Shown here piece after piece: positions 3,751 to 53,372 of a DNA stretch of 64,000 nt. The position numbers and the translations under genes were made by a program. How positions within the stretch are numbered: the first letter of the stretch is position 1; each line of letters begins with the position of its first letter. The stretch is from Amycolatopsis sulphurea (GTDB lineage Bacteria > Actinomycetota > Actinomycetes > Mycobacteriales > Pseudonocardiaceae). A model generated the notes under the pieces. That model saw nothing but the letters and a program-made list of their open reading frames with translations. It searched no databases and was not told the origin of the DNA. The stretch is taken from assembly GCF_002564045.1 (NCBI RefSeq), contig NZ_PDJK01000001.1, forward strand, positions 1 through 64,000, given 5' to 3'.

Positions 3751-3797
3751 GTGAAGGGGCCCTTCACGGACTCAGAGTCCGTGAAGGGCCCCTTCAC
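3751..3797. repeat. Palindromic repeat, two arms (copy 1)
   Basis: GTGAAGGGGCCCTTCAC (3751-3767), GGACTCAGAGTCC (3768-3780) and GTGAAGGGCCCCTTCAC (3781-3797). The 23-bp outer arms are perfect inverted repeats about a single central A, and each 17-mer is itself nearly palindromic. The right edge abuts the stump of a truncated gene. Confidence 0.9.
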
Positions 3798-3802
3798 GGC
3801 AT

Positions 3803-3952
3803 TTCGGCGAAGGGCAGGCCAAGGTCACCGAGACCTTCGACTGGTCCACGGCGCGGCTCCCGTTCGCGATCGGCCTCGCCGGATTCCCGAAGCGCAACGC
3901 GGAGGCGATCGAGAAGACCCTCGCCCGGCTCGGGGCGCTGTTTCCCGGCTGA
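3803..3952 (+). pseudogene. C-terminal stump of an SRPBCC-like gene
   Basis: An in-frame tail of about 49 residues, with TETFDWSTARLPFAIGLAGFP and IEKTLARLGALFPG, ends in TGA at 3950. It resembles the last helix region of SRPBCC (START-like) proteins, but there is no start codon. It begins within a few bases of the palindromic repeat. The 5' part of the gene appears to have been lost at the repeat boundary. Family assignment is tentative. Confidence 0.5.
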
Positions 3953-4018
3953 TTTCTCCGGTATACGCCGGTCCGGCCGGTGATCTTCACCCTGCCCGGA
4001 ACAGCCCGGCCGAGATAG

Positions 4019-4050
4019 TTGTAGCATTGCAAATGTTGTAGAGCTATAAC
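4019..4050 (+). promoter_or_regulatory. Candidate promoter/operator of the MFS-marR operon
   Basis: An AT-rich island in high-GC surroundings carries two direct TTGTAG repeats (4019-4024 and 4036-4041), 17 bp start to start, around TTGCAA, followed by TATAAC (4045-4050). It lies just upstream of the exporter start. It is a plausible binding region for the MarR protein encoded in the same operon. The -35/-10 assignment is not certain. Confidence 0.45.
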
Positions 4051-4068
4051 CATCTCGATCGGAGGCAC

Positions 4069-5502
4069 ATGCCGGAGCTGAGCCACCGGCGGCGGCAGCT
4101 GGTCCTCGCGGTCTGCTGTCTGAGCCTGTTCATCGTGGGCCTGGACAACACCATCGTGAATCTGGCGCTGCCCGCGATCCAGCGCGAACTCGGCGCGTCC
4201 GTGTCCAGCCTGCAATGGACCATCGACGCGTACACGCTGGTGCTGGCCAGCCTGCTGATGCTGTCCGGATCCACCGCGGACCGGATCGGCCGGCGCCGCA
4301 CCTTCCAGACCGGGCTGGTGCTGTTCGGTCTCGGTTCGCTGCTGTGCGGGCTGGCGCCGAACCCCGGGCTGCTCATCGCGTTCCGCGCGGTGCAGGCGGT
4401 CGGCGGGTCGATGCTCAACCCGGTCGCGATGTCCATCATCACCAACACCTTCACCGAACCCCGCGAACGCGCCCGCGCGATCGGCGTCTGGGGCGGGGTG
4501 GTCGGCCTGAGCATGGCGGTCGGCCCGGTCGTCGGCGGGGCGCTGGTCGCGTCGGCGGGGTGGCGGTCGATCTTCTGGATCAACGTCCCGGTCGTGCTCG
4601 CCGCGGTGGTGCTGACCGCGGTGTTCGTGCCGGAATCACGTGCGCCGCGGGCGCGCCGGCTCGACCCGGTGGGGCAGCTGCTGGTGATGGTGTTCCTGGC
4701 CGGGCTGACCTACGGGATCATCGAGGGCCGAGACGCCGGGTACGGCGCCCCGTACATCATGGTGTCCTTCGGGCTGGCGCTGGTCGCGCTGGTGATGCTC
4801 GTACCGTATGCACGACGGCGCGCGGAACCGTTGCTGGAGTTGAGGTTCTTCCGCAGTGCCCCGTTCTCCGGGGCCACCGTGATCGCGGTCTGCGCGTTTG
4901 CGGCGCTCGCCGGGTTCCTCTTCGTCAACACGCTCTACCTGCAGGAGAGCCGGGGCTACAGCGCTTTGCACGCCGGGCTGCTGACCTTGCCGATGGCGGT
5001 GGTGACGGCGGTCGCGGCGCCGCTGTCCGGGTGGATCGTGGGCACCCGCGGGGCGCGGTTCCCGCTCGTGCTGGCGGGTGCGGCGATCGCGGCGTCGGCG
5101 GGGCTGCTCGCGACGATCACCGTGGACACCCCGTTGTGGTGGCTGATGCTCGCCTACGTGCTCTTCGGGCTCGGGTTCGGCATGGTCAACGCGCCGATCA
5201 CGAACGCGGCGGTGTCCGGGATGCCGCGGGCGCAGGCCGGGGTGGCCGCCGCGATCGCGTCGACGAGCCGTCAGGTGGGGGCCTCGCTCGGGGTCGCGGT
5301 GATCGGCGCGGTGGTGACCGGTGGGGTACACGGCGGGTTCGGGGCGGGGCTGGCCGAGGCGAGTCACGCCGGATGGTGGATTATCGCCGGATGCGGGCTG
5401 CTGGTGCTGATGCTGGGTCTGGTCACGACGAGCGCGCGGGCGCGGGCGGGAGCGAGCCGGGTCGCGGCGGAGCTGGATCCGGAACCGGTGGCCACGGGAT
5501 GA
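4069..5502 (+). CDS. MFS drug-efflux transporter, DHA2 (EmrB/QacA) family
   Basis: 477 residues with about 14 predicted membrane helices, the count expected for DHA2 proton-driven exporters. It opens with LVLAVCCLSLFIVGLDNTIVNLALPAIQ (the helix-1 D-x-T-I-V-N-x-A-L-P signature), followed by the loop-2/3 motif GRRRTFQTG and a motif-C-like helix GVVGLSMAVGPVVGG. GGAGG sits 5 nt before the ATG. The stop overlaps the ATG of a MarR regulator, a typical arrangement in which the regulator senses the exported compound. The substrate is unknown. Confidence 0.88.
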   Translation: MPELSHRRRQLVLAVCCLSLFIVGLDNTIVNLALPAIQRELGASVSSLQWTIDAYTLVLASLLMLSGSTADRIGRRRTFQTGLVLFGLGSLLCGLAPNPGLLIAFRAVQAVGGSMLNPVAMSIITNTFTEPRERARAIGVWGGVVGLSMAVGPVVGGALVASAGWRSIFWINVPVVLAAVVLTAVFVPESRAPRARRLDPVGQLLVMVFLAGLTYGIIEGRDAGYGAPYIMVSFGLALVALVMLVPYARRRAEPLLELRFFRSAPFSGATVIAVCAFAALAGFLFVNTLYLQESRGYSALHAGLLTLPMAVVTAVAAPLSGWIVGTRGARFPLVLAGAAIAASAGLLATITVDTPLWWLMLAYVLFGLGFGMVNAPITNAAVSGMPRAQAGVAAAIASTSRQVGASLGVAVIGAVVTGGVHGGFGAGLAEASHAGWWIIAGCGLLVLMLGLVTTSARARAGASRVAAELDPEPVATG

Positions 5503-5955
5503 ACGACGAGGCGTTCCGGGTGTGGGCCCGGCTGCGGGCGATGGTGCTGGAGCTGCACGATCGGCGCAGCGTCGCCTCCGCGGAGCTGGGCATGAGCTTC
5601 ATCAAGGTGAAGGCGTTGCTCAAGGTGGCCGCGGGGCCGCTGACCATGCGGGAGCTGACCGATCGGCTGAGCACCGACCGGCCCTACACCACGCTGGTGG
5701 TGGACGAGCTGGTGCGCCGCGGGCTGGCGGTCCGGGAGCCGCATCCCGAGGACCGCCGCAGCCGGGTGGTGACCGCGACCCCGGCCGGTGCCGCGGCGGC
5801 CGCGCGGGCGCAGCAGATCCTGGGGGAGCCGCCGCCGCAGTTGCGGGCGCTGCCGGCGGCCGAGCTGGCCGCGCTGGACCGGATCACCGCGCTGCTCGTG
5901 CCCGGTCCGTCCACTGCGGACGGACCGCACCGAGGGGTCCGTCCGCGGCGTCGCC

Positions 5956-5969
<14 letters not shown>
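5499..5969 (+). CDS. MarR-family transcriptional regulator
   Basis: 156 residues with a winged-helix core: [12 protein letters not shown], then [50 protein letters not shown], where the wing keeps the D-R-R-S-R signature. The ATG overlaps the exporter stop (ATGA), so the pair is translationally coupled. It probably represses its own operon at the upstream AT-rich site and releases on binding an exported compound. The 3' end overlaps the convergent fumarase stop by 14 nt and contains a strong hairpin; the last few residues may be poorly conserved. Confidence 0.85.
5903..5927. terminator. Hairpin between convergent marR and fumarase genes
   Basis: CGGTCCGTCC-ACTGC-GGACGGACCG, a perfect 10-bp stem with a 5-nt loop, inside the 3' end of marR and about 30 nt beyond the fumarase stop. 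It is placed to act as a bidirectional terminator. Confidence 0.6.
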
Positions 5970-7626
<1,657 letters not shown>

Positions 7627-8003
7627 AGCCAGGCTCCTTTGCCCTGATCGGGATCCGCCCACGGTACTCAGGCCGCTCCGGCGCCGTCCGCCCCCGCAGG
7701 GTCACTGTGGGATACCACACGCCCGGCGGGATACCGCCCGCGCCGGTGGGTTGTGGTTCGGGAGGCCGGGCCCACCCCGACGGACCCGACCTCCCGGGGA
7801 AAGCGGCGTGGCTGCGCTTACACCCACCCGCGTGGCCTCACCGCGACCGTCCGGCCGACCCCCCGCCGGACGTCACCCCCGCTTCCTACCCACCCAGTCT
7901 CGCACCCAAACCCGCTCGTCCCCAACCCCTCGTAACAACTCGACCACCCCTTGCGCACACCCCTGCCTCCCCCCGGCCCCGTCGCACGGCAGGCAACGGA
8001 GCT

Positions 8004-8050
8004 GTGAAGGGACCCTTCACGGACTCAGAGGCTGTGAAGGTGCCCTTCAC
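8004..8050. repeat. Palindromic repeat, two arms (copy 2)
   Basis: GTGAAGGGACCCTTCAC, a central GGACTCAGAGGCT, then GTGAAGGTGCCCTTCAC. The arms have drifted slightly from the consensus. It lies in the non-coding gap between fumarase and sigB. Confidence 0.85.
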
Positions 8051-8086
8051 AGACCTGCGGTGCGGTGCAGGTGACCACGCCGGGGT

Positions 8087-8133
8087 CCAGGGGGCTCGCC
8101 CCCTGGCGGGGGTTTGGGGGTTCGGCCCCCAAA
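8087..8133 (-). terminator. Double hairpin downstream of sigB
   Basis: CCAGGGGG-CTCG-CCCCCTGG (8087-8106) and TTTGGGGG-TTCGG-CCCCCAAA (8113-8133) are perfect 8-bp stems. They lie about 65 nt beyond the sigB stop on the minus strand. Confidence 0.7.
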
Positions 8134-8198
8134 GGACACGGAGGTGGGGCCACAGGCGAGCGCACTCCGCGTGCACACTTCACCCAACCCCACCGACC

Positions 8199-9230
8199 TC
8201 AGCTGGCGTACGCGCGCAGCCGGTCGGCTCGCTCGCCTTGGCGGAGCTTCGACATGACCTCGCGTTCGATCTGGCGGACGCGTTCGCGGGAGAGGCCGAA
8301 GTGCTTGCCGATCTGGTCGAGGGTGCGGGGCTGGCCGTCGTCGAGGCCGTAGCGGAGCCGGATGACGTGCTGTTCGCGGTCGTCGAGGGTGGCGAGTACG
8401 CGGCGCATGTCGTCCTGCAGCAGCCCGGAAATGACGGCGCTTTCCGCGTCGGTGGCCTCGGAGTCCTCGATGAAGTCGCCGAGCGGCGCGTCCTCCTCGG
8501 TGCCGACCGGCATGTCGAGACTGACCGGGTCGCGGGACTGGTCGAGCAGGTCGGAGATCTTGTGCTCGGGGATGCCCGATTCCGCCGCCAGTTCCTCGTG
8601 TGTGGCGTCCCGGCCGAGCTGCTGGTGCAGGTCGCGCCGGATCCGGGCGAGCTTGTTGACCTGCTCGACGAGGTGCACCGGGAGCCGGATGGTGCGGCCC
8701 TGGTCGGCCATGCCGCGGGTGATGGCCTGCCGGATCCACCAGGTGGCGTAGGTGGAGAACTTGAATCCCTTGGAGTAGTCGAACTTCTCCACCGCGCGGA
8801 TCAGGCCCAGGTTCCCCTCCTGGATCAGGTCCAGCAGCGGCATGCCGCGGCCGGTGTAGCGCTTGGCCAGCGACACGACCAGCCGGAGGTTGGCCTCCAG
8901 CAGGTGGTTCTTGGCGCGGTGGCCGTCGCGCACGAGCGCGGACAGCTCCCGGCGGCGCTGGCCGGTGAGGTTCTCGGCGGTGTCCAGCATGTGCTGGGCG
9001 AACACGCCGGCCTCGATCCGCTTCGCGAGCTCGACCTCGTCGGCCGCGGTGAGCAGCGCGGTCTTGCCGATGCCGTTGAGGTACACGCGCACCAGATCGG
9101 CGGCCGGGCTCTGCGCGTCGAGGTCGGCGTCGGTGAGCGCCCCCACGCTCACCGGCTCCTGGGTCTGCGGTGCTGGGATCCCGCGCTCACGAATCCCGCG
9201 CGTTTCGCGTTCGAGAGTCTGGACTGACAT
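8199..9230 (-). CDS. sigB: Group 2 sigma-70 factor, SigB type
   Basis: 343 residues. Region 1.2 is [29 protein letters not shown]. Region 2 follows with [37 protein letters not shown] and the -10-recognition segment [28 protein letters not shown]. Region 3 is degenerate, and region 4.2 ends [28 protein letters not shown]. It lacks the acidic, Lys/Ala-rich N-terminus of SigA in this window, typical of the non-essential general stress paralog. ATG 9230 has GGGAGG upstream; the longer frame to 9419 is not used. An ECF-type promoter lies about 110 nt upstream. A double hairpin follows the stop. Confidence 0.92.
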
Positions 9231-9340
9231 GCTGCCTCCCCGGTCACGGGCTGAACGTGTCTCGCCGGTGCTTCTGCCCGAGGAGCGGGGCCTGTGGAAT
9301 CCCGATCCGCGGGCCCAGCCGGCTTGGCTGGACACTGGTG

Positions 9341-9369
9341 TCAACGCGCCGGGTCGGAAAAACGTTCCC
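9341..9369 (-). promoter_or_regulatory. ECF sigma (SigE/SigH/SigR-like) promoter of sigB
   Basis: On the minus strand GGGAAC (9369-9364), a 17-nt spacer, then CGTTGA (9346-9341). This matches the GGAAT/C-N16-18-CGTT pattern of oxidative/envelope-stress sigma factors. It sits about 110 nt upstream of the sigB start. In mycobacteria sigB is known to be driven by such factors; the assignment here is by motif only. Confidence 0.65.
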
Positions 9370-9501
9370 GGTGCGCCGATCGGGAGACGGCCCGGGCGGG
9401 CAGGCGGTTGCTCCACCAAAACTGAGGTTTTGCTGAGAAACCTCGTCCGGGCGGGGAATGTGGGTCATGAATACCCGGACGGAGCATAGGTCACACGTGG
9501 T

Positions 9502-11448: not shown

Positions 11449-11455
11449 AGAGGCT

Positions 11456-12721: not shown

Positions 12722-12766
12722 CGGCGGGCGGGCCGGAGTGGGAGGATGAGAACCGGAGGTGCTGCC

Positions 12767-15636: not shown

Positions 15637-15811
15637 GCCGCGCGGGCAGCCTCGCGGGACGAAAGCGAAAATCCTTCACCCGAGGGCTGGGCATCCGGGG
15701 GGAGACCGGTAGCACTGCTGGGCGCCGAAGTCCCCTCCTCCCCACGGAGTGCCCAGGGTGTCGGCAAAGTCGGTGTGGAGGTCCGTGAAGGGGACCTTCA
15801 CAGACTCTGAG

Positions 15812-17370
15812 CTTGTTGTTTAACCCGGTTGCGTTGTCGCGCTACCCCGGTTGATCGTGGGTGAGGCCCTTGGTTGATCATTCTTCTTGCGACAGAAGGA
15901 AGATCACAACCAGGGGCCTCAGTTGATCAGTGTGCACGACGCCGGCCGTGCCGGTGCACTCGGGGAGTTGTCCGCGTTCCGGGAGCGGTTCCACCAGTGC
16001 CTGACCAGTCGGGCGGACGCCTTGTCCGACCTGGCCGACGCGGTGCTGTGCGCCGACGGGCCGGTCGCCAGCCTGGCCGAACTGTCGCTGGTCCCGGAGC
16101 ATCGGCGCGGGCACGGCGCCGGCTACGACGCGATCAACCACGGCACGATCGAGGTCGGCCGGTTACGCACCACCCTGGCACGCCTGCCCCTGCCTCGTGC
16201 CGCGGGCGGGCGGATCGCATTGGGCGTGGACGTGTCGCACTGGCTGCGCCCGGACGCCGCGTGCAGCCCCGAGCGGCTGTTCTGCCACACCTACGCCCGC
16301 GGCAAGGGCCAGGCCCAGATGATCCCCGGCTGGCCCTACTCGTTCGTCGCGGCGCTGGAGACCGGGCGCACCTCGTGGACAGCGGTCCTGGACGCGGTCC
16401 GGCTGGGACCCGCCGACGACGCCACCGCGGTCACCGCCGCCCAGCTACGCGCGGTCGTGGGCCGGATTATCGACGCCGGCCATTGGCAGCCCGCCGATCC
16501 GAGCATTCTGATCGTGGCCGATGCCGGCTACGACCTGCCCCGGCTGGCGTTCGTGCTGGCTGATCTGCCCGTCGAGGTGGTGGGCAGGATCCGTTCCGGC
16601 CGGGTGATGCTGCGGCCCGCACCGCCCCGGCGGCCGGGCGCGCCCGGCCGCCGGGCCAAGCACGGTGGGGTGTTCACGTTGGCCGATCCCGCCAGTTGGC
16701 ACACCCCCGAGCACACCACCGGCACCGACACCACCCGCTATGGACACGCCCAGGCCCAGGCATGGGACCGGCTGCACCCACGCCTGACCCGTCGCGGCCC
16801 CTGGCTGGACCACGACGGTGAGCTTCCCCTGGTGGAGGGCACCGTGATCCGCCTGCAGGTCGAGCATCTGCCCGGTGATCGCGACCCCAAACCGGTCTGG
16901 CTGTGGTCCTCGGTCACCGGCGCCAGTGCCGAACTGGTCGACCTGCTCTGGCAGGTGTTCCTGCGCCGCTTCGACCTGGAGCACACCTTCCGGCTGTTCA
17001 AGCAGACCCTCGGGTGGACCCGTCCCAAGCTGCGCGCCCCGGAATCGGCTGACCGCTGGACCTGGCTGATCCTGACCGTCCACACGCAACTGCGACTGGC
17101 CCGCCCGCTGGCCGAGGATCACCGCCGCCCGTGGGAGAAACCAGTCACCGAGCCCCGCCGGTTGACTCCGGCTCGGGTTCGGCGGGGGTTTCGCAACCTG
17201 CACGCGACGACAACCCGCCCCGCAGCCGCACCGAAACCCTCCCGGCCTGGTCCTGGACGCCCAGCCGGCTCGACCAACCACCACCCCGCAACCCGCTACA
17301 ACGTCGGCAAAACCGTCAAACGCGACCTCACCCTCGCGCAGCACCGCAACCACACAGGTTAAACAACAAG
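15812..17370 (+). mobile_element. Complete insertion sequence, IS4/IS701-like, 1,559 bp
   Basis: The ends are inverted: CTTGTTGTTTAACC at 15812 and its complement GGTTAAACAACAAG ending at 17370 (14 bp perfect, then imperfect). A 5-bp direct repeat CTGAG flanks it (15807-15811 and 17371-17375). The duplication lies at the exact centre of the palindromic repeat it entered. One transposase gene fills the element. Terminal repeats, duplication and an intact frame indicate a recent, possibly active insertion. Confidence 0.92.
15887..17362 (+). CDS. DDE transposase of the insertion sequence
   Basis: Up to 491 residues (TTG 15887); a start at TTG 15923 or GTG 15932 is equally possible. It begins, after a short lead, LSAFRERFHQCLTSRADALSDLADAVLCADGP, the helix-rich DNA-binding start of IS701-like transposases. 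The RNase-H core shows a first Asp in GVDVSHW, a second in VADAGYDLPRLAF, and the catalytic Glu in FDLEHTFRLFKQTLGW, similar to the IS4 Y-R-E-K signature. The basic, Pro-rich C-terminus ends 8 nt before the element's end. No frameshift was seen. It catalyses cut-and-paste movement of the element. Confidence 0.88.
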   Translation: MRQKEDHNQGPQLISVHDAGRAGALGELSAFRERFHQCLTSRADALSDLADAVLCADGPVASLAELSLVPEHRRGHGAGYDAINHGTIEVGRLRTTLARLPLPRAAGGRIALGVDVSHWLRPDAACSPERLFCHTYARGKGQAQMIPGWPYSFVAALETGRTSWTAVLDAVRLGPADDATAVTAAQLRAVVGRIIDAGHWQPADPSILIVADAGYDLPRLAFVLADLPVEVVGRIRSGRVMLRPAPPRRPGAPGRRAKHGGVFTLADPASWHTPEHTTGTDTTRYGHAQAQAWDRLHPRLTRRGPWLDHDGELPLVEGTVIRLQVEHLPGDRDPKPVWLWSSVTGASAELVDLLWQVFLRRFDLEHTFRLFKQTLGWTRPKLRAPESADRWTWLILTVHTQLRLARPLAEDHRRPWEKPVTEPRRLTPARVRRGFRNLHATTTRPAAAPKPSRPGPGRPAGSTNHHPATRYNVGKTVKRDLTLAQHRNHTG

Positions 17371-17454
17371 CTGAGTCCGTGAAGGGCCCCTTCACAGACC
17401 TTCACGGACCTCCGCCGTCTGCGCAGGGCCCCTAACACCGACTTTGCCGACACC

Positions 17455-17631
17455 CTGGTGACCGGGCACGTGACTTCGCTGGGTCGGCTGTCGCTGGAAA
17501 GCGGCTGCAGCGGGACCTTCGAAACCGAAGGCATCGACTTCGACGAGCGGGACGGCACCCTGCGGGTCGTGGTCGTCTCGCCGGGCGTCTGCGCGGCCGT
17601 GGACAGCAAGACCTGGCGCTTCCACCGCTGA
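17455..17631 (+). pseudogene. C-terminal stump of an unidentified gene
   Basis: An in-frame tail VTSLGRLSLESGCSGTFETE followed by GIDFDERDGTLRVVVVSPGVCAAVDSKTWRFHR ends in TGA at 17629. It has two Cys and beta-strand-like composition but no start codon. It starts exactly at the right terminal repeat of the MITE-like element. It looks like the surviving 3' end of a gene cut by the element. Family not recognised. Confidence 0.4.
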
Positions 17632-19508: not shown

Positions 19509-19681
19509 CCAGGGGTCCGGCAAAGGGCCGAGGACCCGGCAGTGGGCGATGCGGAGGTGTGTGCGACCACCTCGTGGCGTGCGCCGGACCGGTTTCGGGT
19601 CCGTGAAGGGGCCCTTCACGGACTCTGAGTCTGTGAAGGGCCCCTTCACGGACCTCCACACCGACTTTGCCGACACCCTGG
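19509..19681. mobile_element. MITE-like element with palindromic repeat (copy 4)
   Basis: 173 bp. The left end CCAGGGGTCCGGCAAAG and right end CTTTGCCGACACCCTGG are imperfect inverted repeats. Between them is a conserved ~75-bp stretch with GACCCGGCAGTGGGCGATGC and ACCACCTCGTGGCGTGCGCC, then the two palindrome arms (19603-19619, 19633-19649). The same internal sequence recurs at 37.9 kb and 53.2 kb. Confidence 0.85.
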
Positions 19682-25442: not shown

Positions 25443-26612
25443 GTGAGCAGCTCGCCCGTCGCCCGCCCGGACGAGGTGCGCCGGCACAACCGCACGACTC
25501 TGCTGCGGCTGTTGCACGTGGGTGGCCCGAGCACGCGGGCCGCGCTGGCTGCCGAACTCGGGCTCAACCGCAGCACGATCAAGACCCTCGTGGACGGGCT
25601 CGCCGAGGCGGGCGTCGTCGAGGAGCGGGTGCCCCGGCCGGGGCGGGGGGCCGGGCGCCCCTCGCTCCTGGTCCTGCCGCAACCGCACGCCGCGGTGGTG
25701 CTCGCGGTCGACCTGCAGGTCGAGCACGTGGCGATGGCGCTGGTCGGGCTGGGCGGGCAGATCCTGGTCCGGGACAGCTGGCATCTGCGCACGCCCACCC
25801 GCACCGCGGACGAGGTGATCACGCACGTGATCGAGTCGACCCGGGTGCTCGCCGCCGATCTCGGCGTGGACCCGGTGGCCGCCGGCATCGCGGTGCCCGG
25901 CGTCGTCCGCCGCGCGGACGGGCACGTGCACGAGGCGCCCAACCTGCGCTGGACCGACGTCGCCCTCGGCGAACGCCTTGGTGGCGTGCTGCGCATCCCC
26001 ATCCTGGTCGGCAACGACGCCGAGCTGGGCGCGCTCGCGGAGCACCTGCGCGGCGTCGCCCGCGGCTCGTCCGACGCGGTGTACGTCTCCGCCGATGTCG
26101 GCGTGGGCGGCGGCGTGATCGCGCAAGGCTCGTCGCTGAGCGGCGGCGCGGGCTACTTCGGGGAGATCGGGCACATGGTGATCCGCCCCGGCGGGCGGCC
26201 GTGCTACTGCGGCAACAGCGGATGCTGGGAGACCGAGATCGGCGAAGCCGCGCTGTGCCGTGCTTTGGGCCTGCCCGAAGGCATCGCCCGCGGCGCGATC
26301 CTGGTGGAACTGCGCGAACTGGCCCGCGATCCGGAAGCGGCGCTGGAGCGGCTCGCGGAGTTCACCGAGTGGCTGACTCTCGGCCTGGTGAACGTGGTGA
26401 ACCTGCTGGGCCCGCAGCTGGTGGTGCTGGGGGACCTGCTGACCGTGCTGCCCGAGGCGGTGATCCGGGTCGTCGCCGAGGAGGTCCGGCGGCGCAGCCT
26501 GGTGAGCCGGGCGGTGGGCGGGACCCGGATCGTCAGCTCGGTCCTGGGCGCGGACGTGAAGCTGCTCGGCGCCGCGGAAGTCGCCTTCGAAACCGTCCTC
26601 GACACGGTCTGA
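25443..26612 (+). CDS. ROK-family transcriptional regulator (XylR/Rok7B7 type)
   Basis: 389 residues from GTG 25443. N-terminal winged helix: HNRTTLLRLLHVGGPSTRAALAAELGLNRSTIKTLVDGLAEAGVV. ROK domain: AVDLQVEHVAMALVGLGG, GIAVPGVVRRADG, GNDAELGALAEH, VGVGGGVIAQGSSLSGGAGYFGEIGH, then PCYCGNSGCWE, the C-x-C-G-x2-G-C-x-E zinc motif of the family. It lies directly behind the xylFGH-like genes and probably represses them through the palindrome at 21867, with the sugar as inducer. In Streptomyces coelicolor the adjacent Rok7B7 has wider roles in development, so global effects are possible here. Confidence 0.87.
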   Translation: MSSSPVARPDEVRRHNRTTLLRLLHVGGPSTRAALAAELGLNRSTIKTLVDGLAEAGVVEERVPRPGRGAGRPSLLVLPQPHAAVVLAVDLQVEHVAMALVGLGGQILVRDSWHLRTPTRTADEVITHVIESTRVLAADLGVDPVAAGIAVPGVVRRADGHVHEAPNLRWTDVALGERLGGVLRIPILVGNDAELGALAEHLRGVARGSSDAVYVSADVGVGGGVIAQGSSLSGGAGYFGEIGHMVIRPGGRPCYCGNSGCWETEIGEAALCRALGLPEGIARGAILVELRELARDPEAALERLAEFTEWLTLGLVNVVNLLGPQLVVLGDLLTVLPEAVIRVVAEEVRRRSLVSRAVGGTRIVSSVLGADVKLLGAAEVAFETVLDTV

Positions 26613-26631: not shown

Positions 26632-26678
26632 GTGAAGGGGCCCTTCACGGACTCAGAGTCCGTGAAGGGCCCCTTCAC
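26632..26678. repeat. Palindromic repeat, two arms (copy 5)
   Basis: Perfect consensus: 17-mer, GGACTCAGAGTCC, 17-mer. It begins 20 nt after the ROK gene stop, in the gap before the convergent DUF7455 gene, a terminator-like location. Confidence 0.9.
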
Positions 26679-37817: not shown

Positions 37818-38086
37818 CCGGAACGCTCCACTCGCGAAGGCTGTGAAGGGGCCCTTCACGGACGCTGAGGCTGTGAAGGGACCCTTCACGGACGCTGAGG
37901 CCGAGGACCCGGCAGTGGGCGATGCGGAGGGTTGTGTGCGACCACCTCGTGGCGTGCGCCGGACCGGTTTCGGGTCTGTGAAGGGGTCCTTCACGGACGC
38001 TGAGTCTGTGAAGGACCCCTTGACGGACCTTCACACCGACTTTGCCGGAACGCTCCACTCGCGAAGGCTGTGAAGGGCCCCTTCAC
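37818..38086. repeat. Compound palindromic repeat cluster with a 33-bp direct repeat
   Basis: Contains two-arm copies at 37843-37889 and 37978-38024, the 75-bp MITE internal sequence (37902-37977), a right end ACACCGACTTTGCCGG (38035-38048), and a single arm at 38070-38086. The 33-bp sequence CCGGAACGCTCCACTCGCGA and onward occurs twice, at 37818-37850 and 38045-38077, 227 bp apart. The cluster looks like an element inserted next to, or duplicated with, an existing copy. Confidence 0.8.
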
Positions 38087-38172: not shown

Positions 38173-39591
<1,419 letters not shown>

Positions 39592-43665: not shown

Positions 43666-44157
43666 GTGTCCAGCGTTCAGGTACTCCTCCAACGGCTCGA
43701 TCCGGATGTCCCGCCGCCCGCCTACGCGCGGCCGGGCGATGCCGGCGCCGATCTCGTCACCACCTCGGATATCGTGCTCGGACCCGGCGAGCGCGGGGTC
43801 GTCGGCACCGGGGTGGCGATCGCGCTGCCGCCCGGGTACGCCGGGTTCGTGCATCCCCGCTCCGGGCTCGCCGCGCGCGTCGGGCTGTCGGTGGTGAACA
43901 CGCCCGGCACGATCGACGCGGGGTATCGCGGTGAGATCCGGGTCTGCCTGATCAACCACGATCCGCGGGAGAAGCTGGTGCTCACCCGCGGCGACCGGAT
44001 CGCGCAGCTGGTGGTGCAGCAGGTGGCGCGGGTGGAGTTCGTCGAGGTCGCCGAGCTGGGCGGCACCGAACGCGGCGCGGGCGGCTACGGCTCGACCGGC
44101 GGGCACGCCACACTGGTCCCCGACACGGAGCAGGCCGGGGAAGGAACGGAGAGCTAG
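43666..44157 (+). CDS. dut: dUTP diphosphatase
   Basis: 163 residues. Trimeric dUTPase: converts dUTP to dUMP and PPi. All five motifs are visible: [60 protein letters not shown] and [13 protein letters not shown] (the flexible arm with the stacking aromatic). GTG start; its TAG overlaps the next gene's GTG. Recalled ortholog Rv2697c. Confidence 0.95.
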
Positions 44158-44807
44158 TGGGGATTTTCGGACGCAAGCGCGGGTCCGGCGGCAACGGGCG
44201 CGGCCCCGGGACCGAGCCGGAGGAGACCGGCGCGGACGACGCGGTCGAACCCGGTGACCGGTTGTCGGAGACCTCGGACGGGCCGTTCGACGTCGCCGAC
44301 GCCGAGGACGACGGCATCCCGCGGATCGACCTCGGCTCGGTGAAGGTGCCGGTGCCCGACGGTTCGCAGGTCCAGGTCGAGATGGACCCCGACGCGGGCG
44401 GGGTGCGCGCGGTGCACATCGTGACCGAGCACGGCCAGATCACCGTGAGCGGGTACGCCGCGCCGCGGTCGGGCGGGCTGTGGCGCGAGGTGAGCACGGA
44501 GCTGGGCGATCAGCTGCGCGCGGACGGGGCGAAGGTCAACGTCGGCCGCGGCGAGTGGGGCATGGAGCTGTCGGCCATCATCGGCGACGTCGCGCTGCGG
44601 TTCGTCGGTGTGGACGGCCCGCGCTGGATGCTGCGCGGCGTGATCGCCGGGCCGCAGTCCGCCGCGGCGCAGGCACCGGAGGTGCTGCGGGCCATCGTGC
44701 GCCGCACCGTGGTGGACCGCGGGGACTCGCCGATGCCGGTGCGGACCCCGCTGCCGATCACGCTGCCCGAAGCGGTCGCGCAGCACATCGCCGAACAGCA
44801 GGGCTGA
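44157..44807 (+). CDS. DUF3710 protein
   Basis: 216 residues from GTG 44157, which overlaps the dut stop by one base. Low-complexity, Gly/acidic N-terminus (MGIFGRKRGSGGNGRG...), then a conserved domain from IPRIDLGSVKVPVPDGSQVQVEMD through GLWREVSTELGDQLRADGAKVNVGRGEWGMELSA to GPRWMLRGVIAGPQSAAA. Matches DUF3710 (recalled Rv2696c). Cytosolic, no membrane segment; function unknown. Cotranscribed with dut. Confidence 0.88.
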   Translation: MGIFGRKRGSGGNGRGPGTEPEETGADDAVEPGDRLSETSDGPFDVADAEDDGIPRIDLGSVKVPVPDGSQVQVEMDPDAGGVRAVHIVTEHGQITVSGYAAPRSGGLWREVSTELGDQLRADGAKVNVGRGEWGMELSAIIGDVALRFVGVDGPRWMLRGVIAGPQSAAAQAPEVLRAIVRRTVVDRGDSPMPVRTPLPITLPEAVAQHIAEQQG

Positions 44808-44830
44808 AGCGTCACCGCGGTTTCAAGTCC

Positions 44831-45138
44831 GTGAAGGGGCCCTTCACGGACTCAGAGTCCGTGAAGGGCCCCTTCACAGACCTCCGCAGCGCAGGGCCCC
44901 GGCAAAGTTGGTCGTGGGCTCGTGATCAGCAGAGAGAGCCGTGGCGGCCCGACCGGTTTCGGGTCCGTGAGGGTGCCCCTGACGGACTCAGAGTCCGTGA
45001 AGGGGCCCTTCACAGCCCTCCGCAGCTACGCAGGGCTGTGAAGGGGCCCTTCACAGCCCCCTCCGCAGCTGCGCAGGGCCCTCCACGCCGACTCTGCCGA
45101 CACCGTTGACTCTGAGTCAGTGAAGAGGGCCCCTTCAC
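44831..45138. repeat. Cluster of palindromic repeats (two double, two single arms)
   Basis: Two-arm copies at 44831-44877 (perfect) and 44967-45013 (degenerate left arm GTGAGGGTGCCCCTGAC), single arms at 45038-45054 and 45120-45138. MITE-like end sequences GGCCCCGGCAAAGT (44894-44907) and CCGACTCTGCCGACACC (45088-45104) lie among them. It fills the DUF3710-hydrolase gap, and the last arm overlaps the 3' end of the hydrolase gene. Confidence 0.85.
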
Positions 45139-45860
45139 GGACTTCCCATCGCTCGAAGGGCGCGCAGATAGGCGAGCACGGTGGCGCGGCCCAGGGATTC
45201 GGGGTCCGCGCCGAGTGCGGCCAGCGTGGTCTCCACGTACTGCGCGCGCGGGAGCGCCCCGGCCCATTCGCGGGCCACGCCTGCCGGGTGGATCGGGTCG
45301 TCGGTGCACGCCCCGATCCCGGCGGGCACGGCCAGCCCCCGCAACGTTTCGAGGGTGGGCGCGGGCCTGCGGGCCGCGACGCGGAGCCCGGCCGCCAGCC
45401 CGGACCCGTGCCTCGGCCACGCCCGGCCCAGCTCCGCGGCGAGCCACGGCGGGCTGCCCGCTTCGGCTTGGGCCAGCGCGGCGGACACGCCGTGGGTGGC
45501 CACCAGATCCACGGTGAGCGTCGCAGACTGCGCGGCGGGTGCCTGGCCGGGTTCGCCGTGCCAGGCCGGGAGAGCGGCGAGCAGGCCCGCGCATCGGCCC
45601 GGATGCGCGACCGCCCACTCCGCGGCCAGATGCGCGCCGAAGGAGATCCCGCCGGCCAGCACCGGGCCGTGCTGCGCGGACAGCCGGTCCAGCGCCGCCA
45701 GGAACCCCTCCGCGAGCCCGGCGCCGGGTACCGGAGCAGGGGTGTGCAGCGGCACGCCGAGCGCGGCCAGCGGGCCGCAGAACACCGCGCGGACGAACAC
45801 CTCGTCGGAGCCGGTGCCGGGCAGCAGCACGGCGGCCCGAACCGGGATCGCGGACGTCAC
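45135..45860 (-). CDS. Alpha/beta hydrolase-like protein (Rv2695-type)
   Basis: 241 residues from GTG 45860; CAAGAT 6 nt upstream suggests a leaderless start. Alpha/beta-hydrolase pattern: AAVLLPGTGSDEVFVRAVF, GPVLAGGISFGAHLAAEWAVAHPG where the nucleophile elbow is G-x-S-x-G (GISFG), and VPAGIGACTDDPIHPAGVAREW (acid/His region). The His is followed by a short tail ending RALRAMGSP. The stop codon TGA is provided by the palindromic repeat, so the native C-terminus may have been shortened. Substrate unknown. Confidence 0.78.
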   Translation of the reverse strand: MTSAIPVRAAVLLPGTGSDEVFVRAVFCGPLAALGVPLHTPAPVPGAGLAEGFLAALDRLSAQHGPVLAGGISFGAHLAAEWAVAHPGRCAGLLAALPAWHGEPGQAPAAQSATLTVDLVATHGVSAALAQAEAGSPPWLAAELGRAWPRHGSGLAAGLRVAARRPAPTLETLRGLAVPAGIGACTDDPIHPAGVAREWAGALPRAQYVETTLAALGADPESLGRATVLAYLRALRAMGSP

Positions 45861-45963
45861 GTTGCGATCTTGCCGCAAACCGGTTTCGCTTGCCGGGACC
45901 ACAGCTACGCTGGAGACGCACGGGCCGCAGGATGTCGGCGGCCCCGGAGCACAGGAGCACACC

Positions 45964-46344: not shown

Positions 46345-46353
46345 TCGACTCTC

Positions 46354-47202
46354 GTGACTGAACCTGCCCCGCACGACCGCCGGCCCGTGCCCGGCGCCGA
46401 CGCGACCCCGTCCGCCGCGCCCGGAGCCGAGACACCGGGCGCCGAGACGCCGGGAGCCGAGGTGCCCGGCACCGGGGCACCGGCTTCCACAGCGGCCGGC
46501 GAGGCGAAGGAACCGGACGCCAAGCCGACCATGCTGGACCAGATGGGCGGGACCGCCGGCCTGTTCTACTCCTCGCTGCCGGTGATCTTCTTCGTCCTGC
46601 TCAACTCCCTGTTCGGGCTGACCGTGGCGATCTGGGGCTCCCTCGGCGGCGCGGTGGCCATCACCGTGCTGCGGATGGTGCGCAAGGAGCCGCTGCAGCC
46701 GGCCATCTCCGGGTTCTTCGGGGTGGCGATCGCGGCCTTCATCGCCTACCGCACCGGCTCGGCGAAGGGGTTCTTCCTCTTCGGCATCTGGACCAGCCTG
46801 CTCTACTGCGGGGTGTTCGTGGCCTCCATCCTGGCGCGCTGGCCGCTGGCCGGGGTGGCCTGGAACGCGCTGAACGGCAAGGGCACCGCCTGGCGCAAGG
46901 ACAAGGTCTCGATCCGCGGCTACGACATCGCCACGCTGGCGCTGGCGCTGGTCTTCGCGGCCCGGTTCGTGGTGCAGCGCTGGCTCTACGACAGCGACTA
47001 CACCGGCTGGCTGGCCTTCGCCAAGATCGCGATGGGCTACCCGCTCTACGCGCTGGGCCTGCTCGTGGTCGTCTGGGCGGTGCGCCGTTCGGACAAGCGG
47101 CTCAAGGCGCTCGCCGAGACCGCGCCTGTGCCGGAGACCGACGCCGAGGCCGAAGACCGCCTGCGCCGCAAATACGCCCAGTCACCGACCCCCGACGCTT
47201 GA
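46354..47202 (+). CDS. DUF3159 multi-pass membrane protein
   Basis: 282 residues from GTG 46354, 9 nt after the OB-fold gene stop. Pro/Ala/Gly-rich start of ~45 residues with repeated GAETPGAETPGAEVPG, then about six membrane helices: LPVIFFVLLNSLFGLTVAIWGSLGGAVAITVLR, GFFGVAIAAFIAYRTGSAKGFFLFGIWTSLLYCGVFVASILAR, and ALALVFAARFVVQRWLYDSDYTGWLAFAKIAMGYPLYALGLLVVVWAVR. Matches DUF3159 (recalled Rv2693c), an intracellular-septation-like fold. Function unknown. Confidence 0.86.
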   Translation: MTEPAPHDRRPVPGADATPSAAPGAETPGAETPGAEVPGTGAPASTAAGEAKEPDAKPTMLDQMGGTAGLFYSSLPVIFFVLLNSLFGLTVAIWGSLGGAVAITVLRMVRKEPLQPAISGFFGVAIAAFIAYRTGSAKGFFLFGIWTSLLYCGVFVASILARWPLAGVAWNALNGKGTAWRKDKVSIRGYDIATLALALVFAARFVVQRWLYDSDYTGWLAFAKIAMGYPLYALGLLVVVWAVRRSDKRLKALAETAPVPETDAEAEDRLRRKYAQSPTPDA

Positions 47203-47223
47203 CCCCCTCCTGATCGCACGGCT

Positions 47224-47270
47224 GTGAAGGGGCCCTTCACGGACTCAGAGTCCGTGAAGGGCCCCTTCAC
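47224..47270. repeat. Palindromic repeat, two arms (copy at a convergent junction)
   Basis: Perfect consensus, placed between the convergent ends of DUF3159 (stop 47202) and the TrkA-type gene (stop 47307), where a bidirectional terminator would be expected. Confidence 0.9.
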
Positions 47271-47306
47271 AGCTTTTCGGCAGGGGGGCGGGCAGAGGGG
47301 GCGGGC

Positions 47307-47963: not shown

Positions 47964-48628
47964 CAGTTCTCCTCCTCCGGGGCCCGCGCGGCCACGCTCG
48001 TCACATCGCCGACGGTGCCCGATCGCGCCGCCACCCAGACCACGTCGTCGGCCTGCACCACGGTCTTGCCGTCCGGCAGCACGCCGGTGCCGAAGCGCAT
48101 GATGAACGCCACCCGGGCACCGGTCGCCTCCTGCAGCGAATGCACGCTCTGGCCCACCCAGCCCTCGTGCAGCGGCAGCTGCAGCAGCGCCACGTTGCCG
48201 GAGGGATCGCGCCAGGCCGAGGCCACGCCGTCGGGCAGCAGGGTGCGCAGGAACCGGTCGGTGGTCCACGGCACGGTGGCCACGGTCGGGATGCCGAGCC
48301 GCTCGTACACCGCGGCCCGTTTGTGGTCGTAGATCCGCGCGACCACATGCTCCACACCGAAGTTCTCGCGCGCCACCCGGGCGGAGATGATGTTGGAGTT
48401 GTCGCCGCTGGACACCGCGGCGAACGCGCCGGCCCGTTCGATGCCGGCCTGGATGAGCACCTGCCGGTCGAACCCGATCCCGACCACCTGCTCGCCGTGG
48501 AAGTCGCTGCCCAGCCTGCGGAAGGCCTGCTGGTTCTTGTCGATGATGGCCACGTCGTGGCCGAGCCGCTCCAGCGCCGCGGCCAGGGAAGCGCCGACCC
48601 GGCCGCATCCCATGATCACCACGTGCAC
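47963..48628 (-). CDS. TrkA-type potassium uptake regulator (CeoC-like)
   Basis: 221 residues. MHVVIMGCGRVGASLAAALERLGHDVAIIDKNQQAFRRL (Rossmann motif) with FAAVSSGDNSNIISARVARENFGVEHVVARIYDHKRAAVYERLGIPTVATV, then a TrkA_C domain ending VQADDVVWVAARSG. Diverged tandem paralog of the next gene; they overlap by a TGATG junction. Recalled Rv2692/Rv2691 pair, with NAD(H)-binding expected. Confidence 0.88.
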   Translation of the reverse strand: MHVVIMGCGRVGASLAAALERLGHDVAIIDKNQQAFRRLGSDFHGEQVVGIGFDRQVLIQAGIERAGAFAAVSSGDNSNIISARVARENFGVEHVVARIYDHKRAAVYERLGIPTVATVPWTTDRFLRTLLPDGVASAWRDPSGNVALLQLPLHEGWVGQSVHSLQEATGARVAFIMRFGTGVLPDGKTVVQADDVVWVAARSGTVGDVTSVAARAPEEEN

Positions 48629-48782
48629 GCTCAGCCTCCTTGCGGGGTATGGATGACCCGCGGTTCCGGGTACCCTCTGACACCAGCGCCGAACCTACCC
48701 TGCCCGGGGCCGGGCGGGTCCACCGTCCTCCCCTCCGCCGCCCTGAAATCGGCAGGCGCCGCTCCGCTGTAGATTCCTGACT

Positions 48783-50861: not shown

Positions 50862-52048
50862 GCGAGAACTGGCTGGGCCGGACTCTGGAGCTGGAGATCG
50901 GCCCGGTGGCGCACGGCGGGCACTGTGTGTCCCGAGTGGACGGACGGGTGGTGTTCGTCCGGCACGGGCTGCCCGGTGAACGCGTGCGGGCGGAGGTGAC
51001 CGAGGACAAGGGCGGTGCGTTCTGCCGGGCTGACGCGCTCGAGGTCCTCACGGCGTCGGCGCATCGGGTCACCCCGCCCTGCCCGCTGGCCGCGCCGGGT
51101 GGATGCGGTGGCTGCGATTGGCAGCACGCGGATCCGGGCTACCAGCGGGAACTGAAGGCGGCCGTGGTGGCCGAGCAGCTGCAGCGGCTGGCCGGCATCT
51201 CCCGCGAAGTGGTCGTGGAACCGCTGGACGGCGGCCCGCTCGGCTGGCGTACGCGGGTGCGGCTGGTGGCCGGGCGAGATGGTCGCGCAGGCTTGCGCGC
51301 GCACCACAGTCATCGCGTGATTCCGTTGGACGACTGCCCGATCACGGTGCCGGGCGCGCTGGCGCAGCCGCTGTCGAAGCGATGGAAGCCGGGTACGGAG
51401 CTGGAAGTGACCAGCGACGGCGACAGCCGGGTCCACGTGCGCGAACTGTCCACAGTGCACGGACGTACCCGTGGCCGTCAATTGTCCGGTGGCGAGGCCG
51501 TACAGCATGCCGCGGATCGCGACTGGCGGTTGGACGCCCACGGCTTTTGGCAGGGGCACCCGCTCGCCGCCGACACCTTCGCGCGGCTGGTCGCGAAGTG
51601 GGCCGAGGTGCCGCAAGGCGGGGTGGCGTGGGATCTCTACGCCGGTGTCGGCCTGTTCGCCTCGGTGCTCGCCGAGCAGGCCGGGCCGGAAGGCCTTGTG
51701 TACGCGGTGGAATCGGGTCGCCGCGCGGTGTCCGACGGCGAGCGGAACCTCGCCGATCTGCCGCAGGTGCGGTGGCAGGCCGGTCGCGTGGAACACGTGC
51801 TCGCGGACGCTCCGAAGCCGGTCGACGTGGTCGTGCTCGATCCGCCGCGCAGGGGCGCCGGCCGTGCGGTCGCGGACGCGGTGGCCGAGGGCGAGCCGGA
51901 CCGGATCGTGTACGTGGCCTGTGATCCGGCCGCGCTCGCCCGGGATGTGGCGTACTTCGCCGAGCACGGCTACTCGCTCACCGAGCTGCGCGCCTTCGAC
52001 GCGTTCCCGATGACGCATCACGTGGAATGCGTGGCGCTGCTGCAATAG
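50858..52048 (+). CDS. TRAM-domain RNA (uracil) methyltransferase
   Basis: 396 residues, ATG 50858 overlapping the permease TGA. TRAM domain at residues 1-60 (LELEIGPVAHGGHCVSRVDGRVVFVRHGLPGERVRA), then CPLAAPGGCGGCDWQHADPGYQRELK, Cys residues typical of the RumA/RlmD [4Fe-4S] site, and SAM motif AWDLYAGVGLFASVLAEQAG, with catalytic YVACDPAALARDVAYF (C-D-P) and RAFDAFPMTHHVECVALL. Makes m5U in rRNA or tRNA; exact target not predictable. Recalled Rv2689c. Confidence 0.9.
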   Translation: MSENWLGRTLELEIGPVAHGGHCVSRVDGRVVFVRHGLPGERVRAEVTEDKGGAFCRADALEVLTASAHRVTPPCPLAAPGGCGGCDWQHADPGYQRELKAAVVAEQLQRLAGISREVVVEPLDGGPLGWRTRVRLVAGRDGRAGLRAHHSHRVIPLDDCPITVPGALAQPLSKRWKPGTELEVTSDGDSRVHVRELSTVHGRTRGRQLSGGEAVQHAADRDWRLDAHGFWQGHPLAADTFARLVAKWAEVPQGGVAWDLYAGVGLFASVLAEQAGPEGLVYAVESGRRAVSDGERNLADLPQVRWQAGRVEHVLADAPKPVDVVVLDPPRRGAGRAVADAVAEGEPDRIVYVACDPAALARDVAYFAEHGYSLTELRAFDAFPMTHHVECVALLQ

Positions 52049-52052
52049 CGCG

Positions 52053-53096
52053 TCAGCGGGCGAGTGCGGCGGCGAGCTTCGGTACGCACTCCTGCAGCCC
52101 GTACGGCACGCTCAGCGCGGTCGGGAAGGCGAGCGCGATCGCCGTGGTCATGTCCAGCGGCACGTACGCGCCGCGTTGCACGGCAGGGATGCGCTGGAAC
52201 AGCGGCTCGGCCTCCAGGCGCTTGCGGCTCTCCGGCGTGGCGTACGTCAGGACGAGCACGTCGGCGTCGAGCAGGTCGAGCCGTTCCGGGCTGATCTGCG
52301 AGCGGCCGGGGATCGAGGTCTGCGGCAGTGAGGTGACCTTCGGTGACAGCACGAGTCCCAGCTGTCCCAGGAACAGCGCGGACGAGTCCTGTGTGCTGCT
52401 GATGGTGGTGACCGTGCCGTCCGCGACCACCGGGCCGATGGTGAAGGTCCGGCCGGCGAACCCGGGATGGGCCTGTTTCGCCGCGGTGATCCGGTGTTCC
52501 ACGTCGGTGACGAGCCGTTCGGCGTCGGCGGACCGGCCGAGCGCGGCGCCGATCCGGCGGATGGTGACCTGCCAGGTGTCCTTGTTGTAGCCCTCCGCGG
52601 GCGAGATCGTGGGCGCGATTCCGCTGAGCGTCCGGTAATCGCGGGCCAGAGTCGACCGGTCGGTACCGAGGATGAGGTCCGGGCGCGCCGTGGCGATCCG
52701 CTCGAACGGCAACTCCACGTCGGCGAACAGCTCGGGCAGGCGGTCCCCGGCGCGCGCCTTGAGCCACGGCGAGAGCCCGCCCGGCAGGAACTTGCTCAGA
52801 TCCGGGGTGAGCAGGGGAGTCACCCCGAGCGCCACGGCCGCGTCGGTATCGCGGTACTGGCCCACCGAAACGACCCGCTCCGGCCGCCGCGGCACGGTCG
52901 CGGTGCCCTGCACTCCGCGCACGTCGACCGGGTAGCCCGGGCCGGCCTCGCCTTCGGGCGCGCCGGAGCGGCCGCTGCAGGCGGCGAGCGTGGCGGTGGC
53001 GGACAGCGCCGTCGCGGCCCGCAGGAAATCCCGCCGTCCGAGGCCTGTGCGGGGCAGCTGGGGACGGGCGGCGTCGGCGGATCTCCAAGCAGGCAT
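52053..53096 (-). CDS. Iron-siderophore ABC transporter substrate-binding lipoprotein
   Basis: 347 residues. Twin-arginine signal (GRRDFLRAATALSATATL) ending in lipobox LAAC, so Tat-exported and lipidated. Type III periplasmic-binding fold (PF01497 type): PERVVSVGQYRDTDAAVALGVTPLLT, FERIATARPDLILGTDRSTLARDYRTLSGIAPTI, and the C-terminal LDLLDADVLVLTYATPES. It captures Fe3+-siderophores outside the membrane. An IdeR-type iron box overlaps its promoter, so it should be expressed under low iron. No permease or ATPase is adjacent; it must use a system encoded elsewhere. Confidence 0.87.
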   Translation of the reverse strand: MPAWRSADAARPQLPRTGLGRRDFLRAATALSATATLAACSGRSGAPEGEAGPGYPVDVRGVQGTATVPRRPERVVSVGQYRDTDAAVALGVTPLLTPDLSKFLPGGLSPWLKARAGDRLPELFADVELPFERIATARPDLILGTDRSTLARDYRTLSGIAPTISPAEGYNKDTWQVTIRRIGAALGRSADAERLVTDVEHRITAAKQAHPGFAGRTFTIGPVVADGTVTTISSTQDSSALFLGQLGLVLSPKVTSLPQTSIPGRSQISPERLDLLDADVLVLTYATPESRKRLEAEPLFQRIPAVQRGAYVPLDMTTAIALAFPTALSVPYGLQECVPKLAAALAR

Positions 53097-53105
53097 GCGC
53101 GGATA

Positions 53106-53124
53106 TTAGGTAAGGTTTGCCTGA
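53106..53124. promoter_or_regulatory. IdeR/DmdR iron box
   Basis: TTAGGTAAGGTTTGCCTGA against the consensus TTAGGTTAGGCTAACCTAA: 14 of 19 positions match, including both half-site cores. It ends 10 nt from the siderophore-binding protein start, covering the probable promoter. Confidence 0.8.
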
Positions 53125-53205
53125 CTTGCAACCCTTGGGAGTGTGCCCGGTGTGACCGTGCTCATAAAATGAGCCGGTGAGAACCCTGCCTCAGGGGCAC
53201 ACTGG

Positions 53206-53372
53206 CCAGGGTTCCGGCAAAGTTGTGTCGGGGACCCGGCAGTGGGCGATGCGGAGGTGTGTGCGACCACCTCGTGGCGTGCGCCGGACCGGTTTCGGGT
53301 CCGTGAAGGGGCCCTTCACGGACTCAGAGTCTGTGAAGGGCCCCTTCACGGACCTCCACACCGACTTTGCCG
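53206..53372. mobile_element. MITE-like element with palindromic repeat (right end worn)
   Basis: Left end CCAGGGTTCCGGCAAAG (53206), internal sequence as at 19.5 kb (GACCCGGCAGTGGGCGATGC, ACCACCTCGTGGCGTGCGCC), arms at 53303-53319 and 53333-53349, right end CACACCGACTTTGCCG (53357-53372), after which the terminal repeat is interrupted. A truncated peptidase-like gene starts directly at this edge. Confidence 0.83.

Follow-up and report, generated by a model that had tools for sequence, protein, structure and literature searches.

Introduction

Palindromic repeats scattered between bacterial genes have been described under several names. The doublets of repetitive extragenic palindromic (REP) sequences known as REPINs form hairpins, and their paired palindromes are described as folding into either one long hairpin or a clover (PMC3116915). 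SPRITE, a repeat of Streptococcus pneumoniae, resembles a rho-independent terminator (PMC10969869), and structured transcript ends lacking a U-tract, some of them bidirectional, have been reported from GC-rich actinobacteria (PMC8269248). Here we examine a dispersed palindromic repeat in Amycolatopsis sulphurea, starting from the first 64,000 nucleotides of contig NZ_PDJK01000001.1 (hereafter the window). Its unit is a 47-bp hairpin of two 17-bp arms around a 13-bp spacer, found either on its own (solo) or within a longer element, and our preferred reading, to which we give a probability of roughly 0.58, is that the solo hairpins are terminator-like, occupy old slots at gene ends and have been homogenised in this lineage.

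Like REPINs, the solo hairpins are high-copy extragenic pairs of arms around a spacer, with the same possible folds and with types that differ between lineages (PMC3116915); paired extragenic palindromes in high copy, the mark of REPs and REPINs, are what we find. Unlike REPINs, they come from a genome in which we found no tyrosine transposase, have a fixed length of 47 bp, are tied to stop codons and stand at many gene ends that also have hairpins in two relatives. SPRITE is likewise described as a dispersed terminator-like repeat, clustered and nested among other repeats (PMC10969869), a comparison of descriptions rather than of sequences; shared slots and homogenisation are observations of the present study. 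With the bidirectional or I-shaped actinobacterial terminators the hairpins have in common strong GC stems, little or no U-tract and, for some, a role on both strands, but the account of those terminators deals with individual sites (PMC8269248), whereas A. sulphurea has a near-identical dispersed family.

Results

A high-copy repeat outside predicted genes

The 17-nt arm GTGAAGGGGCCCTTCAC had 47 matches in the window with at most three mismatches, a figure in which most palindromic arms count twice because both strands were scored, against a mean of 0.13 and a maximum of 2 in shuffled sequence. The 13-nt spacer GGACTCAGAGTCC had 21 matches where 2.1 were expected. A genome-wide count, proposed along with the original prediction, found the exact arm GTGAAGGGNCCCTTCAC 1140 times in the 6,856,290 bases of the A. 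sulphurea genome and its reversed control 0 times; 1231 arms are found if the three central bases may vary. Arms of the GTGAAGGGNCCCTTCAC type are present in 21 of 99 relatives, with a maximum of 11 per genome, and all the arm-bearing relatives belong to the same genus (21 of 59), with none among 40 genomes from other families of the order.

We examined the window plus a further 400 kb (contig 1, positions 1-464000; 464 kb in all) more closely. This stretch holds 46 two-arm cores of exactly 47 bp in 24 different sequences, the commonest occurring 12 times, and extrapolation from 46 cores and 113 arms to the 1231 arms gives an estimated ~500 two-arm copies genome-wide. Arm clusters lie outside predicted genes in 68 of 69 cases and inside in one, in agreement with the original prediction that copies avoid coding regions. 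A search of the window against Rfam at the gathering score returned 0 matches, and a 59-nt relative of the hairpin had no match among the plasmids searched. In the open-licence literature the arm sequences had no match, except for one paper containing a 12-mer, and the papers listed by topic searches there included none on such a hairpin family in this genus. What had been predicted as one family proved to be three layers merged together: the solo 47-bp hairpin, an ISAs1-type miniature inverted-repeat transposable element (MITE) with an internal hairpin, and an insertion sequence (IS).

A 47-bp hairpin with conserved pairing

Each solo copy comprises a GTGAAGG-N3-CCTTCAC arm, the palindromic spacer GGACTCNGAGTCC and a second arm, 47 bp in total. 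The hairpin's ends are part of one full palindrome, and its usual edge in A. sulphurea is AGGCT...AGCCT. Folded as a 76-nt stretch, the copy at 47224 forms a single stem of ~26 pairs (-60.9 kcal/mol), and three folds of two copies gave z-scores of -9.8 to -10.7. Pairing is kept by compensatory changes: 12 of the 23 pairs of the long hairpin vary on both sides, with a covariation score of 0.42 against 0.07-0.11 for slid pairings. An alternative structure of three small hairpins is less supported, its outer helices being without any pair changed on both sides. Other genomes yielded 27 distinct outer GTGAAGG...CCTTCAC pairs, most of them from loci selected for containing an arm; 15 span 47 bp, 9 are 17-bp single arms and 3 are of other lengths. 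Three arms stand in series at 30-31 nt spacing at 77877. Downstream of solo two-arm copies, T makes up 54%, 64% and 46% of positions +5 to +7 (the window is 70% G+C), and a test of whether G-U pairs favour one strand with respect to the gene upstream gave no clear result.

Most solo hairpins lie just past predicted stop codons

We separated solo from MITE copies by the presence of inverted ends within 300 bp, a split that leaves a few MITEs among the solo copies when their ends are mutated (173383 appears to be such a case). Twenty-one of the 28 solo two-arm copies lie within 60 bp after a predicted stop, compared with 15% of random intergenic positions (3000 placements; p=3e-12), which bears out for the solo form the original prediction that copies are mostly at gene 3' ends. 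MITE copies do so in only 4 of 28 cases, counted after exclusion of one MITE arm within a predicted gene (286813; solo versus MITE, p=9e-6). On the suggested check for convergent enrichment, 40 solo clusters comprise 15 between convergent, 19 between tandem and 6 between divergent genes, against 73, 247 and 72 among 392 gaps between predicted genes. Placement, as far as it was checked, is neither random nor coding.

The same position recurs in other species. In 100-kb stretches of nine other species (120 kb for relative G028), we collected 27 members of the class with outer ends GTGAAGG or GTGAATG, of which 0 fall in predicted genes and 23 lie within 60 bp of a stop. Counted in the same style over 110 kb, with solo and MITE copies mixed, A. 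sulphurea has 11 members, five of them no more than 60 bp from a stop and one inside a predicted gene. Most solo two-arm copies have a stable GC stem just past the stop codon, one of the marks of an intrinsic terminator.

Shared gene-end slots, unshared sequences

A covariance model of the hairpin, built from 18 genus sequences (3 from A. sulphurea), matches 79 of 80 genus genomes, A. sulphurea included; ~77 candidates were scored per genome, so counts are lower bounds. The best members of 21 genomes all matched positions 1-47; 15 share GTGAAGGCCCCCTTCACTGCG... and the rest differ in inner bases.

We then compared orthologous gene ends. The nearest relative in the comparison appears to be G028, with ~88% DNA identity over most of a 5.5-kb stretch; it contains no exact A. 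sulphurea arms and no exact MITE ends. Of the 20 G028 gene ends orthologous to solo-bearing ones, 11 carry a hairpin, compared with only 20 of the 240 remaining ends (p=9.5e-7); for hairpins of the TGAAGG type the counts are 9 of 20 versus 0 of 240. In relative G033 the corresponding figures are 14 of 16 versus 32 of 196 (p=7.6e-9) and, for the TGAAGG type, 5 of 16 versus 13 of 196 (p=0.006). Convergent pairs enter these ortholog counts twice, which makes the p values somewhat too small; counted once per locus, hairpins stand at 8 of 16 solo loci in G028 and 11 of 13 in G033. Pooling nine relatives over the first 110 kb gave 18 of 35 orthologous solo ends versus 72 of 377 others (p=5e-5). The slot between stops 47202 and 47307 has a strong hairpin in 5 of 9 relatives, several of unrelated sequence. 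At 258622, 44807 and 115484, where G028 has no hairpin or a short one only, G033 has a 47-bp member, so these slots are probably older than the split. On the strength of these shared slots we rejected the random insertion of a new repeat.

Relatives also hold other dispersed hairpin families. One, CCCAATGTGGCATTGGG with TGCG spacers or its relatives, occurs in stretches of G033, G102 and G118, and a hairpin of this type fills the slot of window copy 47224 in G033. Further families, TCGTGAGTGGTAAGGACGGTT..., GTGTGGAAATAGGGACGTT... and GTCGCGAAAGCCACTTTC..., are each found in several of G112, G052, G030 and G007; the inner 47 bp of the GTCGCGAAAGCCACTTTC... family have the same 17+13+17 layout.

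The sequence of the hairpin does not follow the locus. At six loci, core identity is 0.99 within A. sulphurea, 0.63 to orthologous and 0.63 to non-orthologous G028 hairpins and 0.62 within G028, the loci having been chosen for a TGAAGG hairpin in G028, where variable hairpin length lowers identity. Five loci carry a 47-bp member in both genomes (a sixth, 246050, was set aside for a G033 hairpin of another length); here identity is 0.97 within A. sulphurea, 0.791 to orthologous and 0.789 to non-orthologous G033 copies and 0.83 within G033. Because identity within the genome exceeds that between orthologs, and orthologous copies are no more alike than non-orthologous ones, the A. sulphurea copies have been homogenised since the split, an effect that is weak in G033 and absent in G028. 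Identical positions in all relatives, with no sign of movement, had been named as a refuting finding; in the part checked, many positions are shared and the sequence is not, a combination the original prediction did not foresee.

Two mobile elements layered on the hairpin

The longer form is an ISAs1-type MITE carrying the hairpin, an assignment based on the ISAs1-family transposase found between such ends in G102 and on direct repeats. The search for a transposase with matching ends thus succeeded for this form: in G102, ends CAGGGTTCCGGCAAAGT bound a 1.35-kb element whose 407-aa protein matches NCBIfam ISAs1 at 193 bits, and CAGGGTNNCGGCAAAGT-type ends stand 1.3 kb apart in G102, G111 and G016. 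Exact CAGGGTNNCGGCAAAGT ends number 154 and 142 on the two strands of the A. sulphurea genome, and at least one is present in 31 of 80 genus genomes, A. sulphurea included. The 464 kb contain 11 paired-end sets, ten with ends 143-306 bp apart and one 1704 bp apart with an IS inside. Direct repeats of 10-12 bp flank four of the 11 (19510, 218862, 337543, 439651), two more have imperfect ones (67416, 357378) and five are without a clear one; seven contain a full 47-bp core. MITEs with such ends in G036, G105, G004 and G042 carry different hairpins. A search of the A. sulphurea genome with the G102 protein as sole query found no complete ISAs1 partner and one 60-aa fragment (26.6 bits). The term MITE holds for the larger-ended form, with its ISAs1-type ends and target-site duplications at four of 11 copies, and not for the solo hairpin.

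The second element is an IS701-like IS at 15812-17370 (+ strand; terminal inverted repeat CTTGTTGTTTAACC), whose 491-aa transposase (15887-17362, +) matches NCBIfam NF041680 and Pfam DDE_5, and IS701 models far more weakly. It interrupts the hairpin at 15785/17379 at the sequence CTGAG, which flanks it at 15807-15811 and 17371-17375. What had been listed as a split copy of the family is actually this separate insertion at a hairpin centre. Each of the five complete copies of this IS that the genome contains is likewise found in the middle of such a hairpin. The target is CTNAG, and 57 of 485 CTNAG sites in the 464 kb are at an arm; the chance of five of five is therefore 2e-5. Other genus genomes have 31 matches to the transposase, and of 17 inspected, two, both in G102, are plainly within hairpins. 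At these two loci (L156 and L163) an NF041680-type IS lies inside hairpins of another sequence family. High fidelity for a repeated palindrome recalls the ISs that target REP sequences, for which 5 of 5 ISPsy8 and 10 of 10 ISRm22 copies are reported at their target (PMC1525189). The A. sulphurea element differs in being NF041680/IS701-like, a name absent from that paper, and in its target, CTNAG at the hairpin centre. The hairpin centre is a predictable landing site for this IS.

Repeat copies in the window

Two-arm copies with the 30-nt arm spacing were found, as predicted, at 3751, 8004, 19603, 26632, 37843, 37978 (where the second arm has diverged), 44831, 44967/44997 (with a degenerate first arm), 47224 and 53303, together with single arms at 38070, 45038 and ~45120 and the arm pair 15785/17379. 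Four of the solo hairpins follow genes closely: 3751-3797 begins 21 bp after a predicted + strand stop, 26632-26678 lies 20 bp past the stop of 25443-26612 (+), 44831-44877 lies 24 bp past that of a DUF3710 gene (44157-44807, +), and 47224-47270 stands between convergent genes with predicted stops at 47202 (+) and 47307 (-). A diverged solo hairpin, 8004-8050, is 149 bp past the 3' end of a sigma-70 family gene (8199-9419, -). This gene and a second sigma-70 family gene (38173-39591) share a 300-nt block of 82% identity.

The larger inverted ends and shared interior of some loci were also confirmed, as a 144-nt block at 19529, 53229 (99%) and 37904 (81%). The 171-bp MITE at 19510-19680 contains the hairpin 19603-19649 and has an 11-bp target duplication, GCCCCGTGCCC; that at 53207-53372 contains 53303-53349 and has a truncated right end; and that at 15754-17457, with ends CAGGGTGTCGGCAAAGT, is the one interrupted by the IS and is without a clear target duplication. 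A composite at 37818-38086 consists of a solo hairpin (37843-37889), the MITE-derived 144-nt block (37904-38047) and the single arm at 38070, and is bounded on either side by a 42-bp direct repeat (98%), far longer than the 10-12 bp duplications of other loci. A degenerate MITE-like stretch, 44893-45140, contains the two-arm copy 44967-45013 and the single arms at 45038 and ~45120.

Discussion

Overall, the hairpins form a real, well-placed class found across the genus, and their evolution is unusual; on top of them lie an ordinary MITE and an IS that targets hairpins. Judged by its placement, its pairing and the hairpins seen at orthologous gene ends in two relatives, the solo 47-bp hairpin most likely serves to end transcripts, to protect their 3' ends or to do both. 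Since it is symmetric it could act on the transcripts of both strands, and position, pairing, symmetry and shared slots are consistent with a role in termination or 3'-end protection on either strand. Of the two labels originally offered, that of a chromosomal punctuation element suits the solo hairpin, given its gene 3' ends, compensatory changes and ends shared with two relatives, though not the whole family. The slots would predate the present sequence, because the hairpins found at orthologous ends in relatives are of other versions or unrelated, and the occupants of the slots would have been rewritten in this lineage by concerted evolution. Candidate processes are conversion between copies and replacement by an incoming hairpin whose insertion sites are terminators. 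The ISAs1-type MITE, which in places appears inserted in a hairpin, and the IS701-like element are layered on top.

Several observations weigh against this reading. Stops and in- or out-of-gene calls are predictions from our own codon model, and for seven of the 28 solo two-arm copies there is no predicted stop within 60 bp. The U-tract is short, T enrichment is weak when ten species are pooled, and a consensus terminator scan of 37-54 kb matched none of these hairpin sites. Orthologous ends are less clear in other relatives: G008 has hairpins at 3 of 4 orthologous solo ends versus 12 of 48 others (p=0.07), G007, G030, G052 and G112 have them at 0-1 of 3-4 each, and the solo sites 274478, 281599 and 392957 are without a hairpin in any relative mapped. 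Identity within G028 (0.62) is no higher than between species, and within G033 (0.83) it barely exceeds orthologous identity (0.79). Nor are versions strictly species-specific, since G007 and G118 share a core, at least two versions are present in each of G030 and G033, and 15 of 21 best members are of one version. The lack of homogenisation in G028 and the sharing of versions between species weaken the case for homogenised terminator slots, and for the wider proposal made below, and strengthen that for a REPIN-like element.

Such an element, which a REP-associated tyrosine transposase would move in single-stranded form and which would prefer the 3' sides of genes, would account for two palindromic arms around a spacer able to fold as a long hairpin or clover (PMC3116915), for the many nearly identical copies within a single genome, for arms that also occur singly or in threes and for solo sites that lack a hairpin in mapped relatives. 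We nevertheless consider it rather unlikely, as hairpins are shared at gene ends with G033 and G028, covariation favours the long hairpin over three small ones, and Y1_Tnp (PF01797), sought in the A. sulphurea genome, has 0 matches there, while 5 of 14 control genomes were positive. A strict REP/RAYT origin is rejected on this last ground, the lack of a Y1_Tnp match in the A. sulphurea genome. The GTAG or CGTC end tag described for REP sequences (PMC3733652) is likewise absent from the flank counts of solo two-arm copies, which show GCT...AGC. It is improbable, too, that all forms belong to one MITE family whose short copies are internal leftovers of the long one. Inverted ends, 10-12 bp repeats and full cores inside seven of 11 paired-end copies are what such a family would leave, but solo copies show no target duplication (28 two-arm copies, 81 boundary/length combinations, best z 1.97), have their own AGGCT...AGCCT edge in place of MITE edges and differ at a diagnostic pair, core position 18, which is G-T in 10 of the 13 cores from MITEs and in 5 of the 28 from solo copies; moreover, relatives have 47-bp hairpins after genes, G028 without exact MITE ends. 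A single MITE family for all forms was rejected on the missing duplications and edges.

Two further possibilities assign the function to the arm. Arms might be bound by a protein that acts along the whole chromosome, with a specificity that varies by lineage, in which case the hairpin would be incidental; 17-bp palindromic arms at a constant 30-bp spacing suit this, as do the 60 repeat sites of positions 1-464000, which are spaced more evenly than random placement (mean 7.6 kb, coefficient of variation 0.62). We see only a slim chance of it, for pairing is preserved between species across the whole 47 bp, placement tracks stop codons and some slots are filled by an unrelated hairpin in a relative. 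Uptake signals whose paired copies double as terminators occur in Neisseria and Haemophilus, and the arm could likewise be a DNA uptake or recombination signal. Uptake sequences are described as differing between species as dialects (PMC3630211), and GTGAAGG occurs outside arms 103 times (69 in predicted genes) against 45.5 expected from base composition alone, which takes no account of codon usage. Longer pieces are unenriched there (GTGAAGGG, 21 versus 16.1; GTGAAGGGGC, 3 versus 2.0, with 0 in genes), and with no excess of longer half arms, though the bare 7-mer is at about twice its base-composition expectation, we rejected an uptake signal as hardly credible.

Returning to terminator-like hairpins in old slots, a more general and decidedly tentative proposal is that the genus possesses a process that rewrites terminators throughout the genome. 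It could copy one version of the 47-bp hairpin, whose geometry is fixed, over others in ancestral slots, so that a lineage such as A. sulphurea might come to have a single dialect while its slots remain in place. This proposal rests on the comparison of A. sulphurea with two relatives. Bacterial short dispersed repeats are generally regarded as selfish insertions; in A. sulphurea, many positions are shared with relatives and the sequences are not. Shared positions with unshared sequences are the signature of concerted evolution, which is known mainly from tandem arrays. If the proposal is true, hundreds of dispersed regulatory hairpins would be evolving in concert without tandem linkage or a known transposase, which would raise the question of the agent by which a single 47-bp hairpin overwrites hundreds more. 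They would also provide a natural experiment in which hairpin geometry stays constant while sequence changes.

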